Source: Roseateles oligotrophus (GTDB lineage: Bacteria > Pseudomonadota > Gammaproteobacteria > Burkholderiales > Burkholderiaceae_C). From it: DNA of 64,000 bases. Both the position numbers and the translations under genes were made by a program. Of this stretch, positions 12,806-22,120 are shown one piece after another. Below the pieces are notes generated by a model, which worked only from the letters and a program-made list of their open reading frames with translations, was not told where the DNA came from and ran no database searches. The DNA is taken from contig NZ_JACHLP010000012.1 in NCBI RefSeq assembly GCF_014204525.1, positions 1 to 64,000 of the forward strand. Reading direction: 5' to 3'. Positions within the stretch are counted from its first letter, which is position 1. Every line of letters begins with the position of its first letter.

Positions 12806-13723
<918 letters not shown>

Positions 13724-13744
<21 letters not shown>

Positions 13745-16621
13745 CGCAGCCCCGGCCTCGACCAGGGTGAAGGCGGCCCAGTAGTAGGGGTGGGTGTAGG
13801 CCAAGCGCCTGTCTTGCAGCGCGGCGGTCTGAGCCCGCTGCAAGGCGCCAGCGTAATCGGCCGGGCGCTTGGCCAGCTCGGCATAGAAGCGGCGCATCAG
13901 CGCGGCGGTTTGGCGGTCATCCACCTTCCAGTGGCTGGCCTCTTCGGCAACCCCGGGCAGGGCGGCATAGCCGGGCCAGGCCTGGGTCAGGCCAAAGCCC
14001 TGCAGTCTTGGCCGGCCTGGGTGGTCCAGCGCCTGCGCCGGCCAGCCCTCCGTGCCGGTCTCTGCCGGCGCGGCGCCGGCCAGCACCAGTCGGTATTTCT
14101 GCGCCAGGTATTGCTTGCCGTCGTGCAGTGCGCCCAGGGGTAGATAGCGCAGGCTGCCATCCAGCCACAGGCGGATCTGGTGCTTGCCCTGGGCCTGCGC
14201 CTGCAGGTCGATCTGCAGGCCCAGTTGCTGGTACAGCCGTTGGGCCAGGGGCAGGGTGTCGCCGCGCTCCTGGAGCAGTTGGAGGAAGCGGGCGATGTCC
14301 TGCTTGAGCTGCCTGCCGTCCAGCGCCTGGCGCTGCAATTGGTAGGTCCCGGCCTGGGAGCTGAGGATGCTGAGGAAGTCGTCGCCTAGCAGGAAATGGG
14401 CATGGAGGGTCTTGGCGTCGGTGCTCGTCAGGCTGGGTGCTGCTGTGGGCTCACTCTTGCCGACGCGGGCTTGCTGCAGGAGTTGAGCCAGCGTTTGCAG
14501 CTCGGCGGCGCGTCTGGCGTTGCTGCCTTGCATCCAGGTCTTGAGTTCCTCTTTTTCCGCCGGGCTCAGTCGCTCGCTGACCAGCAGGCGCAGCATGCGC
14601 TGCCGGGTCTCGCCGGGTTCGGCCTCGGTCCCGAAATGCTGTTCAAGCGCGGCCTGCAAGGCTTGCTCACCGGGGGTCAGCGAGAGGGCGGGCATCTCCG
14701 TTGCAAGGGCTCTTTGTGCGAAGTCATCCTGCTCCCTGAGCCTGACGAGTTGCATGACTTCCAGCGCCTCGGCGATGCGGCCCGCTTGCGCCAGCCAGTC
14801 GGCCAGTTGGCGGTAGATGGTCAGCTTGTTCCTGACAAAGCCGCTGTCCTTGTTGGTGTTCAGGCTCAGCAGATTGCTGCGCATGGCCTGCAGGATGTTG
14901 ACGGCCTGCTTGGCAAAGGCAATCGCCTCGCCCGCCTGGCCCTGCGCCCGGGCGCTCAAGGCCAGTGCCTCGAAGGCTCGCCACTCCAGGTTGGGCATGC
15001 TGCCTGCACGGCCGGCCGCCAGAGCGCGGGCGGCCCAGGCATAGGCCTTGTCCGAGTGTTGCTGGCGGCGTTCCTGGACGGACAGGGCCAGGCTCATCAA
15101 GGCCTCGGTTGAGGGGCTGAGCACGTCGTCGGCGGACTCGTCCCATTGCTTCAGAAAGGCTTGCAAGGCCGGGCAGTCGCCGGGCTCCAGGCGGCAGCGA
15201 TGGCCAAGCAGAAAGAGCCGCATATCGTGCTTGTCTGGATAGATTCTGGCGAAAGCGGTTTCGGCATCCAGCAAGGCCTGGTAGGCCGCAGCGGGCTGGT
15301 CCAGGCCCACCATGACGTCGGCCTTGAGCAACTGGAAGTGGCCGAGCTGGCTGGGCAGGGCGCCCTCGGTCTGCAAATGCTGTTCCGCCGTCTTCAGTGC
15401 CAGTGCCGCCTCGCCCACGTCCCCCAGGTTCAAGAAAACCCGGCTCAGCGCCAGATGGGCCGCCAGCGCTGTAGGTTGATCGGCCCGCTGCCCGCTGGCC
15501 TCCAGCAGCCCAATGCAGCGCTGCAGGGTCTTGAGCGCATCACCCCATTGCCCCAGATTCATTTGCGCAGAGGCCATGCGGCGCAGGGCACGGGCGGCAC
15601 GCGGGCTTTGGGCCAGGGGGCCGGCCTGGAGCAGGGCCTCGGCGGCCCGGCTCATCTCGAGCGCTTCCTGAAACTTGCCGCGGCTGTTCAGCAGCCCGGC
15701 GAAGTTTTCCAGTATCCCTGGCCTGATATGGGCAGGGTCGGGGTCCTCGGGTTGGAACTGGCTCAGCAGCGACCGGAAAGCGGCCTCGGCCTCTTGGAAA
15801 CTGCCCTTGCGGCTGAGCAGGGTTGCAAGGTTCTGCAAGGAGCCGGCCAGATCGGCCTTCAGATGAGCAAGATGCCGCTGTCGCAGCTCGACTTCCTGCT
15901 GCGCGTAGCGGGTGGCATCGGCCAAGCGTTCGGAGCGAGCGGCATTGAAGGTCAGCGCGCGCAGAGCCTGGGCCAGCTGAGGCCTGAGCGCGGCCTGGTC
16001 CTGCAAGGCGGCATAGATGGACTGCAGCAAGGCTTCGGCCTCCGGGCGCTGGTTCGCGGCGGTCAGATAGACGGCATGGTTGATCTGTGCCGTCCAGTAT
16101 TCCCTGGCATCGAAATCCGCGGCGCGAGCCGCCATGGCTTGCAGGGCTTGGGTTGACCAGGCGAGTGCTTTTTCGACCTCGTCGCGTGCATGGTGGGCCG
16201 CCGCAAGTGCCAGGGCCACCCTGCCAGTGCCTTCCAGACCTTCGGGTCCGGCTTGGCCGATCTGCTTAAAAAGGCCGGGCCCCCAGGCCATGGCGAGGTC
16301 TAGCTGCTGGGCCACCACCATGGCCTCGATCACAAAAGCCTGTGCGTTCAAGAGGGCGGGTGCCTGTGCCCCCTGTGCTTCCTGTGTTGCCTGGCTCAGC
16401 TCGGCGAGCTTGCAAGCGATGGGCAGGCTTGCCGGCGCTTCTTCCGCAAGCAGGGTACGGGCTTGCTGTCGCAGCAAGGCCGGCGAGTGCTCGCTCACGG
16501 GGTGTTCGCTCAAGGCCTTGGAACAAACGGCCTCGAGGTTGGCGGGGGCCGCATCAGCAATGCCCGGACTCAGCAAAGCGAGCAGCAGCGCGTGAACTTT
16601 GATTTTCGGCTGCAGCAGCAC
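13724..16621 (-). CDS. TPR-repeat protein with a truncated CHAT domain
   Basis: The 965 residues comprise a signal-like hydrophobic start (residues 8-25), a long TPR-type helical array (about 30-620), and a C-terminal CHAT (caspase HetF-associated with TPRs) domain. The CHAT part has [17 protein letters not shown] and [19 protein letters not shown]. It then passes directly at about residue 895 into [18 protein letters not shown]. In complete CHAT domains the segment between those points is about 120-160 residues and holds the catalytic His and Cys, and neither is present here. The reading frame is kept. The start is GTG at 16621, 20 bases after the preceding gene's stop. It probably acts as a scaffold or regulator and not as a protease. 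Confidence 0.82.
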
Positions 16622-16641
16622 AGGTCGGCGCTCCCGGCCAC

Positions 16642-17304
16642 TCAGGGCTCAAATTCAATCAACAAGCTAGGTCCTTGAGCTTGGTCGAGCTGCAGCGCTT
16701 TGAGCGCTTGGACCTGCTCCGGCGTCAGGCGCTCGGGCAGCTCCAGATCCAGTCCCAGGCGCCCGAGCCGCTCATAGGGCTGGGCATCCAGTTGAACCGC
16801 GCGCAAGGCTTCAAGCATCTGCTGCCGGCGACCGGCCGGATCGGGGCTGCGGATCAGCACGGTGGCGCCGGCCGAGCCGCGTTCGATGCGCTCTTCCGCC
16901 ACTGGGGGGGCAAGCGTGCCGGGCCAGTTCCAATAGCCCAGCACCCCGCAAAACAGCAGGCCCAGGCCAGGAGCCCACAGCTGCGGGCGTAGCAGCTTGT
17001 GCAGCCAAGCCCGGACCTCCCACGCGGGCGATGGCCGAGGCTCAGGTCTTGCCTGCTGTTGGGTGGCGGCCAGGATGCCGGCTGCGCGGGCGCGCTGCAG
17101 CAGGCGCTCGGCCCGGGCCTCGGGATCGGGCATCTGGCCCTGGGGTTGCGCCGGCCGGTAGCTCAGCAGGGCGGCGCGCAGCCAGACGCTTTCTTCCCGC
17201 ATGCGGTGCCGAGCCTCGGGCCGGCTGCGGCCCGCCATCAAGTCCAGCCAGGCCTGGTCATCAGCCGCTTCAGCGTCATCGGCCTGGGACGGATGCTCGT
17301 TCAT
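16642..17304 (-). CDS. single-TM protein in anti-sigma position, function unknown
   Basis: This 220-residue protein has a cytosolic N-terminal region (1-125) with a charged helical stretch, one membrane helix at about residues 130-148 (LWAPGLGLLFCGVLGY) and a periplasmic C-terminal part. Its ATG overlaps the stop of the sigma-factor gene by four bases (ATGA), the usual arrangement of sigma/anti-sigma pairs. No zinc-binding HxxxCxxC motif of ZAS-type anti-sigma factors is visible, so the anti-sigma role rests on position and topology only. Downstream is the TPR-CHAT gene. Confidence 0.65.
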   Translation of the reverse strand: MNEHPSQADDAEAADDQAWLDLMAGRSRPEARHRMREESVWLRAALLSYRPAQPQGQMPDPEARAERLLQRARAAGILAATQQQARPEPRPSPAWEVRAWLHKLLRPQLWAPGLGLLFCGVLGYWNWPGTLAPPVAEERIERGSAGATVLIRSPDPAGRRQQMLEALRAVQLDAQPYERLGRLGLDLELPERLTPEQVQALKALQLDQAQGPSLLIEFEP

Positions 17305-17948
17305 GCGGCCACCTCATCGTCCAGCCTGGGCGCGGCCGCCGGGCTGACCAGGGCGTACCAGGGGGCAAAGAAGGGTCGGGCCTTTTTGCGGCATTGCGAC
17401 ACGAACTCCCGGGTGGCGCCGGGGCTGCGATCCAGTAGCTGAGCCAGCTGCGCGTAGTCCAGGCCCTCATCGACGATCCAGCGCAGCGCGGCGGCGTGCG
17501 CCGGGTGTGCGGCCTGGAAGCGCGCAAAACAGTTGCGGAAGACGGCCTCGATCTGCTTGTTCTTCAAGGCATGCTCCGGCCCCTCGGGCCGCTCCTGTGC
17601 CAGGGCCTGGACGGCACGCTGCACCTCGGCGGTGAACTGCCCATCCTCGTCCTGTTCCAGCGGCTGCTCAGGCCGTTTGGCGCGCAGGCTGTCGATCAGA
17701 CCATTGCGCACGATCTGCCGCACCCAGGCGATGGGATCGGCCGGGCCGCGGAAGGTGGCGCAGCGCAGCCAGACCTTGATCAGCGACTCCTGCACCACAT
17801 CCTCGGCCTGCTGCCAGCAGCGCAGGGCGATGGCGGCCTCGCGGTACAGGGCCGCCCCATGCTCGCGGTCGAACACGCGCAGCCATTGCTCGATCAGCGG
17901 GCCGCCTTGGCGGCAGGCATTCATGAAGCTGCGGGCGTCGAGTTCCAT
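17301..17948 (-). CDS. sigma-70 family (ECF-like) RNA polymerase sigma factor
   Basis: This 215-residue sigma factor shows region 2 in the stretch with AEDVVQESLIKVWLR followed by FRGPADPIAWVRQIVRNGLID. A C-terminal region 4 helix-turn-helix contains YAQLAQLLDRSPGATREFVSQCR. A linker rich in Glu and Gln joins them. The start at 17948 is the first ATG in frame; an upstream TTG at 18023 would add 25 residues without family similarity. It is translationally coupled to the one-TM protein. It probably directs transcription of a local surface or stress regulon, possibly including the CHAT gene and the nearby PEP-CTERM gene. Confidence 0.85.
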   Translation of the reverse strand: MELDARSFMNACRQGGPLIEQWLRVFDREHGAALYREAAIALRCWQQAEDVVQESLIKVWLRCATFRGPADPIAWVRQIVRNGLIDSLRAKRPEQPLEQDEDGQFTAEVQRAVQALAQERPEGPEHALKNKQIEAVFRNCFARFQAAHPAHAAALRWIVDEGLDYAQLAQLLDRSPGATREFVSQCRKKARPFFAPWYALVSPAAAPRLDDEVAA

Positions 17949-18050: not shown

Positions 18051-21000
18051 TCAAGCCCGAGTTGGCAAACGTCTGCGGCCAACGTAAGCGAGCAGCCCAA
18101 GCCCGGCGAGCAGCAGAGCCCAGCTGCTGGGTTCCGGCACGGCGCTGATGCTGCTGACGGTAAAACTCACATCGTGCGCGCCATACTGAATCGTCAGCCC
18201 GTAGTTCAGCCCGTTGCCCACGCCCCAAGCGCTGTCAAAGCCACCGCTGAAGCTGCCGCTGGTGTTGATCAGCGTGAAGTGGTCGCCGAGCTGTGCCTGA
18301 TAGTCGCTGAAGTCCAGCTTGACTTGCCCGTCGTAGACGGCATTGCCTGAGAGATTGAGTCGCCCATGCACGCTGCCCGCTTGCAGGCCTTGCAACGGGC
18401 TTGCCGGCTTGCTGAGTGCGGCGATGTCAAAGGCCAATAGCGAGGGGTCGGCCAATGTCAAGGGCGAGTAGACCGTCATCTGGGCATCGCTGCCGATATG
18501 CAGCCGGCCTTGGCTGTTGTCGAACTGCGTGCCTTGAACGTACAGTGTGCCCGCGTCCGCCGAGATCAGGCCTTGGTTGACGATAGTTCCCGAGCCATCG
18601 CCCAAATAGCCGACGCCGCGCACAGCATGGTCGGCGGCAATGGTCAGCATGTGGCCGTTGTTGCGGATGTAGCCGGAGTAACCGCTGCTGGACGAACTCA
18701 AGATGGTTTGGCCGCTGCCGCTCAAAGTCGTGTCGGCCCCCAGATAGACATAGGAATAGCCGCTGTTGCCGCCCGTCAGATTCAAGCTGCCTTGGTTGGT
18801 GATGGTGCCGGAGGTGTAGAGCGAGGTGCCGCTGGCTACGGTGAAGCTATTGGCAATGGTCAGATTTTTGATGTTGATGGAGCCACTGGAGCTGAAATTA
18901 CCGGTTAGCACGGCCGCTTCAAGGCTGCCGCCGCCCAGCTTGGCCAAGCCCAGGCCCTGGATGCTGCCGTCGCTGAGCGTGCCGCTGAGGTTGAGCGCAG
19001 CGCCGTCGGCAATCTGGACAACACCATGGCTGTTGTCAAAGGTCCGGCCGCTGCTGCTTCCCACCTGGATGTAGAGCGGGCTGCTGCCCTCGGCCATCAC
19101 CAAACCCTTGTTGACGATGCCACCCGAGCCGTCGCCCAAATAGCCAGCACCGCGTACCGTGTGATCGGCGGCAATGGTCAGCGTGTGGCCGTTGTTGCTG
19201 AGGTAGCCGGAGTAGCCGCTATTGGACGAACTCAAGATGGTTTGGCCGCTGCCGCTCAAAGTCGTGTCGGCCCCCAGATAGACATAGGAATAGCCGCTGT
19301 TGCCGCCTGAAAGGTTGAGCGTGCCCACGTTGTTGATGGCACCTGAAACAGTGGCCGAATTGCCACTTTTGACTTGAAGCGACCCGGCCAGGCTCAGGTC
19401 TTGATAGCTACCGCCATGGAGATTGGCCGAACCTGTCCCTTCAAGCCGCCCACCGCTCAGGATTCCGCTGAGGTTGAGCGCAGCGCCGTCGGCAATCTGG
19501 ACAACACCATGGCTGTTGTCAAAGGTCTGGCCGCTGCCGCTGCCCATCTGGATGTAGAGCGGGCTGCTGCCTTCGGCCATCACCAAACCCTTGTTGACGA
19601 TGCCACCCGAGCCGTCGCCCAGATAGCTATTGCCGCGTACCGTGTGATCGGCGGCGATGGTCAGCGTGTGGCCGTTGTTGCTGAGGTAGCCGGAGTAGCC
19701 GCTATTGGACGAACTCAAGATGGTTTGGCCGCTGCCGCTCAAAGTCGTGTCGGCCCCCAGGTAGACATAGGAATAGCCGCTGTTGCCACCGGTCAGATTC
19801 AAGCTGCCCTGGTTGGTGATGGTGCCGGAGGTGTAGAGCGAGGTGCCGCCGGCCACGGTGAAGCTGTTGGCAATGGTCAGATTTTTGATGTTGGTGTAGC
19901 CACTGGAGCTGAAATTACCGGTTAGCACGGCCGCTTCAAAGCTGCCGCCGCCCAGCTTGGCCAAGCCCTGGCTCCGGATGCTGCCGCCGCTGAGCGTGCC
20001 GCTGAGGTTGAGCGCAGCGCCGTCGGCAATCTGGACAACACCATGGCTGTTGTCAAAGGTCTGGCCGCTGCTGCTGCCCATCTGGATGTAGAGCGGGCTG
20101 CTGCCCTCGGCCATCACCAAACCCTTGTTGACGATGCCACCCGAGCCATCGCCCAAATAGCCATTGCCGCGTACCGTGTGATCGGAGGCGATGGTCAGCG
20201 TGTGGCCGTTGTTGCTGAGGTAGCCGGAGTAGCCGCTATTGGACGAACTCAAGATGGTTTGGCCGCTGCCACTCAAAGTCGTGTCGGCCCCCAGGTAGAC
20301 ATAGGAATAGCCGCTGTTGCCACCGGTCAGATTCAAGCTGCCCTGGTTGGTGATGGTGCCGGAGGTGTAGAGCGAGGTGCCGCCGGCGACGGTGAAGCTG
20401 TTGGCAATGGTCAGATTCTTGATGTTGGTGGAGCCACTGGAGCTGAAATTACCGGTTAGCACGGTCGCTTCAAAGCTGCCGCCGCCCAGCTTGGCCAAGC
20501 CCTGGCTCCGGATGCTGCCGCCGCTGAGCGTGCCGCTGAGGTTGAGCGCAGCGCCGTCGGCAATCTGGACAACACCATGGCTGTTGTCAAAGGTCTGGCC
20601 GCTGCTGCTGCCCATCTGGATGTAGAGCGGGCTGCTGCCCTCGGCCATCACCAAACCCTTGTTGACGATGCCACCCGAGCCGTCGCCCAAATAGCCATTG
20701 CCGCGTACCGTGTGATCGGCGGCGATGGTCAGCGTGTGGCCGTTGTTGCGGAGGTAGCCGGAGTAGCCGCTATTGGATGAACTCAAGATGGTTTGGCCGC
20801 TGCCGCTGAAGGTGGTGTCAGCCCCCAGGTAAAGCGTGGCGTAGCCGCTGCTGCCACCTGCCAGGTCCAAACGGCCGCTGTTGTTGATGACGCCGCCGTA
20901 AAGGTAGAGGGCGGCACCGCTGGCGATGCTCAGCTTGTCGCCGCTGTTGATGGTCAGCCGCCCAATGCTGCGTGTGCTGGCGAGTGTGAGCAGCGAGGGG

Positions 21001-21221
21001 GTGTTGGGGCCGCTATTGCCCACCAACACGTCGATCAGGCTGTCATTGGGCGCGGCCAGCGTGCTCCAAGCCAGGTCATTTTCCCAATTGCCCGTGCCGC
21101 CCAGCCAGACGGCTTCCAGGGCCTGGGCCGAGGGCTGGGCGAGCAGGGCGGCCGAGCCGACCAGGGCGATTTGAATGGCCCGTTGCAGGGGCGAGGGGCG
21201 GGCTGCGGTGTGTGCGTTCAT
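18051..21221 (-). CDS. PEP-CTERM surface protein with long tandem repeats
   Basis: This 1056-residue exported protein has a signal peptide at about 1-35 (ending SAQA). A beta-helix-like body follows, rich in Gly, Ser, Asn and Thr and built of near-identical repeats of 178 residues plus one of 161. The C-terminal sorting signal is VPEPSSWALLLAGLGLLAYV followed by GRRRLPTRA. PEP-CTERM proteins are processed by exosortase and exported to biofilm matrix or surface. Repeats contain motifs such as LTIAADHTVRG, YLGDGSGGIVNKG and GQTILSSSNSGYSGY, which recall autotransporter-type passenger helices. AGGAAA lies before the ATG. Exosortase genes are not in this window. Confidence 0.9.
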   Translation of the reverse strand: MNAHTAARPSPLQRAIQIALVGSAALLAQPSAQALEAVWLGGTGNWENDLAWSTLAAPNDSLIDVLVGNSGPNTPSLLTLASTRSIGRLTINSGDKLSIASGAALYLYGGVINNSGRLDLAGGSSGYATLYLGADTTFSGSGQTILSSSNSGYSGYLRNNGHTLTIAADHTVRGNGYLGDGSGGIVNKGLVMAEGSSPLYIQMGSSSGQTFDNSHGVVQIADGAALNLSGTLSGGSIRSQGLAKLGGGSFEATVLTGNFSSSGSTNIKNLTIANSFTVAGGTSLYTSGTITNQGSLNLTGGNSGYSYVYLGADTTLSGSGQTILSSSNSGYSGYLSNNGHTLTIASDHTVRGNGYLGDGSGGIVNKGLVMAEGSSPLYIQMGSSSGQTFDNSHGVVQIADGAALNLSGTLSGGSIRSQGLAKLGGGSFEAAVLTGNFSSSGYTNIKNLTIANSFTVAGGTSLYTSGTITNQGSLNLTGGNSGYSYVYLGADTTLSGSGQTILSSSNSGYSGYLSNNGHTLTIAADHTVRGNSYLGDGSGGIVNKGLVMAEGSSPLYIQMGSGSGQTFDNSHGVVQIADGAALNLSGILSGGRLEGTGSANLHGGSYQDLSLAGSLQVKSGNSATVSGAINNVGTLNLSGGNSGYSYVYLGADTTLSGSGQTILSSSNSGYSGYLSNNGHTLTIAADHTVRGAGYLGDGSGGIVNKGLVMAEGSSPLYIQVGSSSGRTFDNSHGVVQIADGAALNLSGTLSDGSIQGLGLAKLGGGSLEAAVLTGNFSSSGSINIKNLTIANSFTVASGTSLYTSGTITNQGSLNLTGGNSGYSYVYLGADTTLSGSGQTILSSSSSGYSGYIRNNGHMLTIAADHAVRGVGYLGDGSGTIVNQGLISADAGTLYVQGTQFDNSQGRLHIGSDAQMTVYSPLTLADPSLLAFDIAALSKPASPLQGLQAGSVHGRLNLSGNAVYDGQVKLDFSDYQAQLGDHFTLINTSGSFSGGFDSAWGVGNGLNYGLTIQYGAHDVSFTVSSISAVPEPSSWALLLAGLGLLAYVGRRRLPTRA
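18560..20870. repeat. five-copy tandem repeat (534-bp unit, one 483-bp variant)
   Basis: Equivalent marker sequences in the coding repeat occur at 18624, 19158, 19641, 20175 and 20709, giving periods of 534, 483, 534 and 534 bases. Long runs are identical between copies at DNA level. The shorter interval, around 19310-19460, replaces the usual linker with a different segment. The outermost copies are the most diverged. The outer boundaries given here are approximate. Confidence 0.85.
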
Positions 21222-21361: not shown

Positions 21362-22120
21362 TCAGGGGGTGGCCAGAGAGGTGTCGCCTGCCAGCTTGGC
21401 CTTGAGTTGCAGGTACAGGGCCGCGCTCTCGTTGCTGAGGAGGCGGCCTTGTTCGGCGCGCAAATGGCCCAGGCTGTGCTCAAAGGCCTGGCGCAGTTCC
21501 TGCTGGCGGCCGGCCCCCGTGAGGGCGCGCATCAGGCGGCGCAACACCGCCTCATCGCTGGGATGCAGGGTGTGCAAACGCTGGAGCAGCGCCAGCGCCT
21601 GCCCGAGTTCGCCCTTGGCTTCGCAGAGCGAGATCGCCCCTTGCAGCTGTTGGGTTTGTTCGGCCATCGCCTTGCTGCGCTGGATTTGAATCCAGTCATT
21701 CAGCCTGGGCTGTTGCTCGAAGCGCAGGCCCTGCAGGAATTCTGTTTCCTGGGCAGGGAGCCGCTCCCAGCAGGGCGAGGTCAGTTGCAACTCGGGGCTG
21801 GCGGACAGTCGTGTCTGCCCCTGGAGCAGGCGTTGGGCTGGCACTCGCCGATTCAGTCTGGTGATGCGTTGACGCAGATTGCTCAAGGCCATGCTGGCGC
21901 TTTGCTCCGGCCAAAACAAGTGGGCGATTTGGGTGCGATCTTGGGGGCCGTCGATCAAGAGCAGCGCCAGCAAGGCCGCATCCATGGGCCTGAGCTCAGC
22001 CTTGGCCGGGTAGGCATGCGCGGACCCGGCCGTCCACTCGAACAACTGGGCGGGACCGTAGACCTGCAATTCAAAACGAACTTTTGGCTTGGACGGCTCC
22101 GTGCTTGGGTTTGCCTTCAT
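21362..22120 (-). CDS. transcriptional regulator with BTAD domain (SARP-like)
   Basis: This 252-residue protein has a winged-helix-type N-terminal region (about 15-100), including AALLALLLIDGPQDRTQIAHLF and LSNLRQRITRLNRR (short extracts of one helix-rich stretch). A helical bacterial transcriptional activator domain (about 125-245) with TPR-like helices such as ALALLQRLHTLHPSDEAVLRR completes it. No receiver domain is present. It lies 140 bases upstream of the repeat PEP-CTERM gene on the same strand and probably controls it. It is divergent from puuD over a 190-bp gap. Confidence 0.75.
   Translation of the reverse strand: MKANPSTEPSKPKVRFELQVYGPAQLFEWTAGSAHAYPAKAELRPMDAALLALLLIDGPQDRTQIAHLFWPEQSASMALSNLRQRITRLNRRVPAQRLLQGQTRLSASPELQLTSPCWERLPAQETEFLQGLRFEQQPRLNDWIQIQRSKAMAEQTQQLQGAISLCEAKGELGQALALLQRLHTLHPSDEAVLRRLMRALTGAGRQQELRQAFEHSLGHLRAEQGRLLSNESAALYLQLKAKLAGDTSLATP

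Follow-up and report, generated by a model that had tools for sequence, protein, structure and literature searches.

Proteases of the caspase clan are widespread among bacteria, and few of their substrates are known to our knowledge. A 64,000-nucleotide stretch of Roseateles oligotrophus DNA (contig NZ_JACHLP010000012.1, positions 1 to 64,000; the window) raises this problem at a single locus, where genes for an extracytoplasmic function (ECF) type sigma factor, a protein with a single putative transmembrane segment (the one-TM protein) and a TPR-CHAT protein lie together, and a caspase-family gene converges on them. Do these genes form a protease-gated transcription switch, and if so, which protease would open it? 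We conclude, with a probability of about 0.55, that this block represents one copy of a sigma/anti-sigma module for envelope signalling whose intact members are gated by an exported caspase-clan protease, that the copy in the window has lost the core of its CHAT domain by deletion, and that the neighbouring caspase is not one of its components.

Reading downward from position 22120 on the minus strand, the genes encode a BTAD regulator, a PEP-CTERM protein, the sigma factor, the one-TM protein and the TPR-CHAT protein (Table 1), and the reading frames of the cluster are open. The overlapping ATGA behind the translational coupling claimed in the original prediction is present in the sequence, the sigma stop codon (17301-17303) sharing bases with the ATG of the one-TM gene, and the TPR-CHAT gene indeed starts 20 bases after the one-TM stop, at a GTG codon. 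The caspase gene lies on the plus strand, convergent with the TPR-CHAT gene, and the 3' ends of the two share 21 bases; its H104/C155 dyad is intact as described, with the SGHG and DSCH motifs fitting that numbering from the ATG at 12806. The interval originally given for the whole cluster (13724..17948) does contain the sigma, one-TM and CHAT genes, but the caspase gene (12806-13744) falls almost wholly outside it.

The association of a sigma/one-TM pair with a caspase-clan protease is a recurrent arrangement, beyond chance. Searches with the one-TM family and reading of the neighbourhoods gave 22 loci, and for 17 of them the genome was searched for CHAT and C14 domains as well. At 16 of these 17 one or the other domain lies within 6.5 kb of the one-TM gene, against 0.29 expected from random placement; CHAT is found at 12, C14 at 10 and both at six (the window is counted in each), and the 17 loci are not independent because there are close relatives among them (G002, G009 and G011; G013 and G017). 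The single locus with neither domain, in G308, is on a 4.3 kb contig. The co-occurrence that the original prediction proposed to look for is seen elsewhere, all four families being found together in G449, G001, G007, G009 and G011, as well as at a second site in the window's own genome (G000:C13). In G449, which lies outside the window's order and within the same phylum, the genes for the sigma factor, the one-TM protein, the caspase, a 147-residue frame and the TPR-CHAT protein are all on one strand; at G000:C13 (L050 6549-11884) the sigma and one-TM genes are divergent from those of a TPR-CHAT protein and a caspase, and the two proteases have intact motifs. G050 carries two sigma/one-TM/caspase sets, and at three loci (L020, L046 and L091) the caspase gene is operon-like, on the strand of the sigma gene.

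The window sigma factor matches PF04542 (Sigma70_r2; Pfam) at 46.2 bits and TIGR02937 (NCBIfam) at 54.7 bits, for which the cut-off is 42.9; its match to region 4 is weak (13.1 bits) and below cut-off. The one-TM protein consists of a helical N-terminal part, a hydrophobic segment at about residues 104-125, a juxtamembrane Arg142-Gly143 pair and a C-terminal alpha/beta part at about 138-220, and its AlphaFold2 model is confident for the helical N-part and the alpha/beta C-part, with a poorly defined middle. It matches no Pfam family above cut-off and no NCBIfam family, and hence no known anti-sigma family in either. The hydrophobic segment separates N-part and C-part in all 22 one-TM sequences (not all of them independent), that of the window being the weakest, with a 17-residue mean of 1.41, and its flanking charges, judged by eye, fit an N-part on the inside. 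We infer that the one-TM protein is an anti-sigma factor. An Arg in the juxtamembrane linker is near-invariant, occupying the aligned column in 21 of the 22 sequences and lying one column off in the 22nd, and Gly follows it in 19. Orthocaspases and bacterial caspases cleave after basic residues (PMC6426788), and this Arg may be where the one-TM protein is cut; because the model places the window's Arg, with moderate confidence, in an edge strand, a structural role for it is also possible.

The TPR-CHAT gene proved to be only partly what the original prediction had described: the Pfam match is real, but the catalytic part of the CHAT domain is missing. The CHAT profile (PF12770) is matched at 62.3 bits against a Pfam cut-off of 24 in two separated stretches, positions 2-63 and 228-287 of 289, leaving about 64-227 unmatched. 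In an alignment of 15 TPR-CHAT proteins the corresponding in-frame gap follows window residue 894 and spans 115-138 residues in the relatives (133-138 in seven); all 14 relatives have both the catalytic His and the catalytic Cys, the window being the only gapped row, and the domain is therefore not intact. A pattern scan of 20 CHAT proteins agrees. The Cys motif is missing from the window protein alone, which leaves 19 with it, and the His pattern matches 17, failing in the window protein and in two others (L043a and L048) that keep the Cys motif. The deletion may be an assembly error. An orphan TPR-CHAT gene with intact motifs is also found in the window's own genome (G000:C8; L016 3668-10020), with no sigma pair in that stretch.

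Could the window copy then be a decaying remnant, an acquired module that lost its protease core and is drifting without any regulatory role? We consider this the most serious alternative, although an improbable one. Beyond the deletion itself, it would account for the unusual divergence of the CHAT protein, which has 32-33% identity to its counterparts in four relatives, themselves 61-69% identical to one another, when the window sigma factor and one-TM protein have 59-62% and 42-46% identity to the same four, and for the poor modelling of the region past the deletion (pLDDT, the per-residue model confidence, is below 50 at residues 849-905 and 941-965; the first CHAT strands are moderate). 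However, the frames are open with a third-position GC of about 0.8, near that of the neighbours, the TPR solenoid is modelled well, most of its ten-residue means exceeding 80, and in the CHAT tree the window branch, at 0.89, does not exceed in length the branch of an intact orphan, at 1.07. The same intact solenoid and unbroken frame, together with a signal-peptide-like N-terminus that the original prediction did not mention, also fit a pseudoprotease that gates the sigma factor without cutting, through its binding to an envelope ligand and to the one-TM protein. Pseudo-variants of bacterial caspases are on record (PMC6426788), but the window is a lone case in a family where 19 of 20 scanned members keep the Cys motif, and we regard this explanation as somewhat less probable again than decay.

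A hydrophobic stretch (12-residue mean of at least 2.0) is found near the start of 11 of 15 CHAT proteins, that of the window included. In the L016 and L048 proteins it begins some 60 residues from the N-terminus, perhaps behind a too early start; the L018 protein is signal-like by eye alone, and the L081 protein was read from too early a start. An exported N-terminus is not a defining property of the module caspases, as a strong one is present in only 5 of 10, and the window caspase has none. It is absent from the operon caspase of L020 (twin-arginine-translocation-like by eye), from one of those of L044 and from those of L017-L019, the export of which is consequently uncertain; the start of the G000:C13 caspase is signal-like, this and the G449 caspase having been judged by eye. 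The hydrophobic CHAT starts and the charges flanking the one-TM segment suggest that the sigma factor is held on the cytoplasmic side by a protein whose outer domain faces exported proteases.

The history of the window caspase is a separate one. This protein (Peptidase_C14, 75.4 bits, with SGHG and DSCH present) has orthologues, 72-85% identical, in 13 of 17 other genomes of the genus, and we read the flanks of seven of the 13 (G001, G003, G004, G007, G008, G011 and G015). No sigma module lies beside the caspase in six full flanks, nor up to the contig end in G004, where the contig stops just past the caspase. A urate-oxidase gene follows the caspase by about 36 bases in G008 and G015, an empty site, and in G001, G003, G007 and G011 a gene for a giant protein lies between the two; the G011 protein, the one that was scanned, contains a CHAT and an alpha/beta-hydrolase domain. 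In the window the caspase and urate-oxidase genes are instead separated by about 8.5 kb, a block lying between 13745 and 22310 with approximate ends. G015 has a sigma module of its own on a different contig, and in G005, G006, G009 and G012 a CHAT domain is found in a frame of about 1980-2035 residues, roughly 4-5 kb from the caspase. In the caspase tree the window protein and its orthologues form their own branch (0.999), apart from the module caspases, which fall into three groups: two from G050 with those of G001, G000:C13 and G449; those of G007 and G288 with another from G050; and those of G009 and G011. The caspases of G001, G000:C13 and G449, and one in each set of G050, show the full catalytic pattern, and by pattern scan six of the other seven module caspases have the His alone and one has neither. 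As the caspase is a core gene of the genus and the site beside it is empty in relatives, residence explains its adjacency, and it is probably a long-term resident and no part of the cluster. The membership proposed for it therefore holds for the family, in that sigma/one-TM pairs are recurrently linked to caspase-clan proteases, and is not supported for this particular caspase, with its separate branch and with no sigma module beside its orthologues in the flanks read.

This bears directly on the original prediction's own mechanism, in which cleavage of the one-TM or the CHAT protein by the adjacent caspase would be part of a switch or a suicide module, and which we think very unlikely. The caspase is adjacent with its dyad intact, and caspases do occur in sister modules, some of them likewise without a clear export signal and not themselves forming one tree group; but it is module-free elsewhere, sits on a separate branch, and has no hydrophobic N-terminus, while the CHAT protein and the outer domain of the one-TM protein are predicted to lie outside the cytoplasm. 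The least credible reading is an anti-phage or abortive-infection module, for which there is the precedent of Craspase (PMC10028731) and, among seven proteins scanned with PADLOC, only single-gene matches to the caspase model (38.8 bits for the window caspase, 65.3 for that of L020) and weak ones of the window TPR-CHAT protein to a TPR model and the L015 TPR-CHAT protein to BovA (E about 0.001 each). Against this reading stand the predicted location of the parts outside the cytoplasm, their surface-protein neighbours and, among the seven proteins, the lack of any match for the sigma factor, the giant CHAT protein and the one-TM protein.

A gene missing from the original prediction may point to the output of the switch. 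The PEP-CTERM gene lies directly upstream of the sigma gene on the same strand, and genes with the PEP-CTERM motif are upstream of sigma in four of the five closest loci (the window, L015 with the gene split into two frames, L081 and L083, the last from Paucibacter sp. PLA-PC-4); Pelomonas V22 (L084) has none there. Because of these upstream genes, control of a surface protein is the likeliest output of the sigma factor, as judged by gene position only. Within the window gene, five 300-base repeats between 18556 and 20940 are 72-88% identical to the reference copy, at a spacing of 483-534 bases. The orphan TPR-CHAT gene at G000:C8 lies near a gene whose product shares 28% identity with a portion of the protein encoded by this window gene.

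Table 1. Features of the sigma/one-TM/TPR-CHAT block and its surroundings (positions in the window).
Feature	Position	Strand	Basis or remark
ECF-type sigma factor	17304..17948	-	Sigma70_r2 46 bits; TIGR02937 54.7 bits; 59-62% identity to four relatives
One-TM protein, likely anti-sigma factor	16642..17304	-	ATGA overlap; single hydrophobic segment; AlphaFold2 model
Exported-looking TPR protein with truncated CHAT domain, without catalytic His and Cys	13724..16621	-	CHAT and TPR matches; in-frame gap relative to 14 relatives
Junction of the in-frame CHAT deletion, spanning the two codons for residues 894 and 895	13937..13942	-	
PEP-CTERM surface protein containing five long repeats	18051..21221	-	PEP-CTERM motif; inside block absent from relatives
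BTAD-domain regulator	21362..22120	-	Inside block absent from relatives (empty-site comparison)
Resident caspase-family (C14) protein, dyad intact	12806..13744	+	Neighbour; not judged part of the module

Several neighbourhoods of related loci have further features. At L017 (11462-16299), and also at L018 and L019 (G011, G009 and G002), a caspase-domain gene and two genes that look lipoprotein-like by eye are divergent from sigma; the caspase of these loci has SAHG and no Cys by pattern. The sigma/one-TM pair of G308 (L045 1-333) is followed by the beginning of a lipoprotein, truncated where the contig ends, in which a sequence resembling PDZ is seen by eye. Upstream of the G449 set (L091 10946-13864) are genes for products that, again by eye, are FecR-like, cyclase-like and, in the case of a membrane protein, CHASE2-like. 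A protein of 1972-2036 residues is encoded about 3-43 bases after the resident caspase on the same strand at L077 (10329-16439) and at L078-L080; the L077 protein, the only one of these scanned, combines a CHAT domain with DUF7379 and an LCAT-like alpha/beta hydrolase. Resident caspase and giant protein together look like a separate caspase/CHAT-hydrolase operon of the genus.

For the envelope-signalling module that we favor, we propose that the one-TM protein, translated together with the ECF sigma factor, would tether it to the inner membrane and turn its own outer domain towards an exported TPR protein with a caspase-clan protease (CHAT in the window, and at other loci a caspase or both). 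Where the module is intact, the TPR part would detect an envelope signal and the protease would cleave the one-TM protein outside the membrane, after which further proteolysis would release the sigma factor to activate nearby genes, in the window's group probably that of the PEP-CTERM surface protein. Against such gating in the window itself stands the lack of catalytic residues in the candidate gate-keeper, and with the CHAT core deleted the switch would have to be unlocked in trans by another protease, such as the intact set at G000:C13, or the TPR protein would act as a binder alone, or the switch would be stuck. A more specific version is possible but distinctly more tentative: a four-part periplasmic relay outside CRISPR, in which an exported caspase and a TPR-CHAT protein encoded together would cut the one-TM anti-sigma factor after its juxtamembrane Arg and free the ECF sigma factor, the window holding a protease-dead version possibly unlocked by the intact set of the same genome. 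In this family the one-TM protein is a candidate substrate, the near-invariant Arg-Gly just outside the membrane is a candidate site for the cut, and sigma release provides a readout, and the role of these proteases is therefore directly testable; the window copy, as a natural case of catalytic loss, asks whether the sensor half works without the cutter.

Among the matches listed in a search of the open-licence literature, which does not extend to subscription papers, no paper describes a membrane anti-sigma factor with an exported CHAT or caspase protease, and the known systems resemble this one in part. The neighbourhoods of EACC2-caspases include an ECF sigma factor and a DUF1822 TPR protein (PMC8195603), and share with the present module a caspase, an ECF sigma factor and a TPR protein as neighbours; here, however, the TPR protein carries a fused CHAT domain and has a one-TM partner, and DUF1822 has no Pfam match in the seven window proteins scanned. 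Operons of sigma-70 with metacaspase were listed in 2012 for Myxococcus, other deltaproteobacteria, Ralstonia and Fibrobacter (PMC3501461), and the caspases in operon with sigma at L020, L046 and L091 are like these, but the part of that paper on operons mentions no membrane anti-sigma factor or CHAT protein, and the window caspase is outside the operon, on the convergent strand and of separate origin. In Craspase a sigma factor and an inhibitor are linked with a TPR-CHAT protease, which cuts the inhibitor (PMC10028731). Compared with that system (Cas7-11, Csx29, Csx30 and CASP-sigma), the partner here is membrane-spanning, the CHAT proteins look exported, that of the window is without catalytic residues, and no Cas7-11 was noticed in the loci read, no CRISPR search having been made. 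Finally, membrane anti-sigma factors of the RseA/RsiW type are cut by DegS or other first-site proteases (same source). The present family differs from these in matching no known anti-sigma family and in having CHAT or caspase neighbours and not DegS-like ones, but it resembles them in that a single-pass protein is co-encoded with an ECF sigma factor, which is predicted to be released by a cut outside the membrane.

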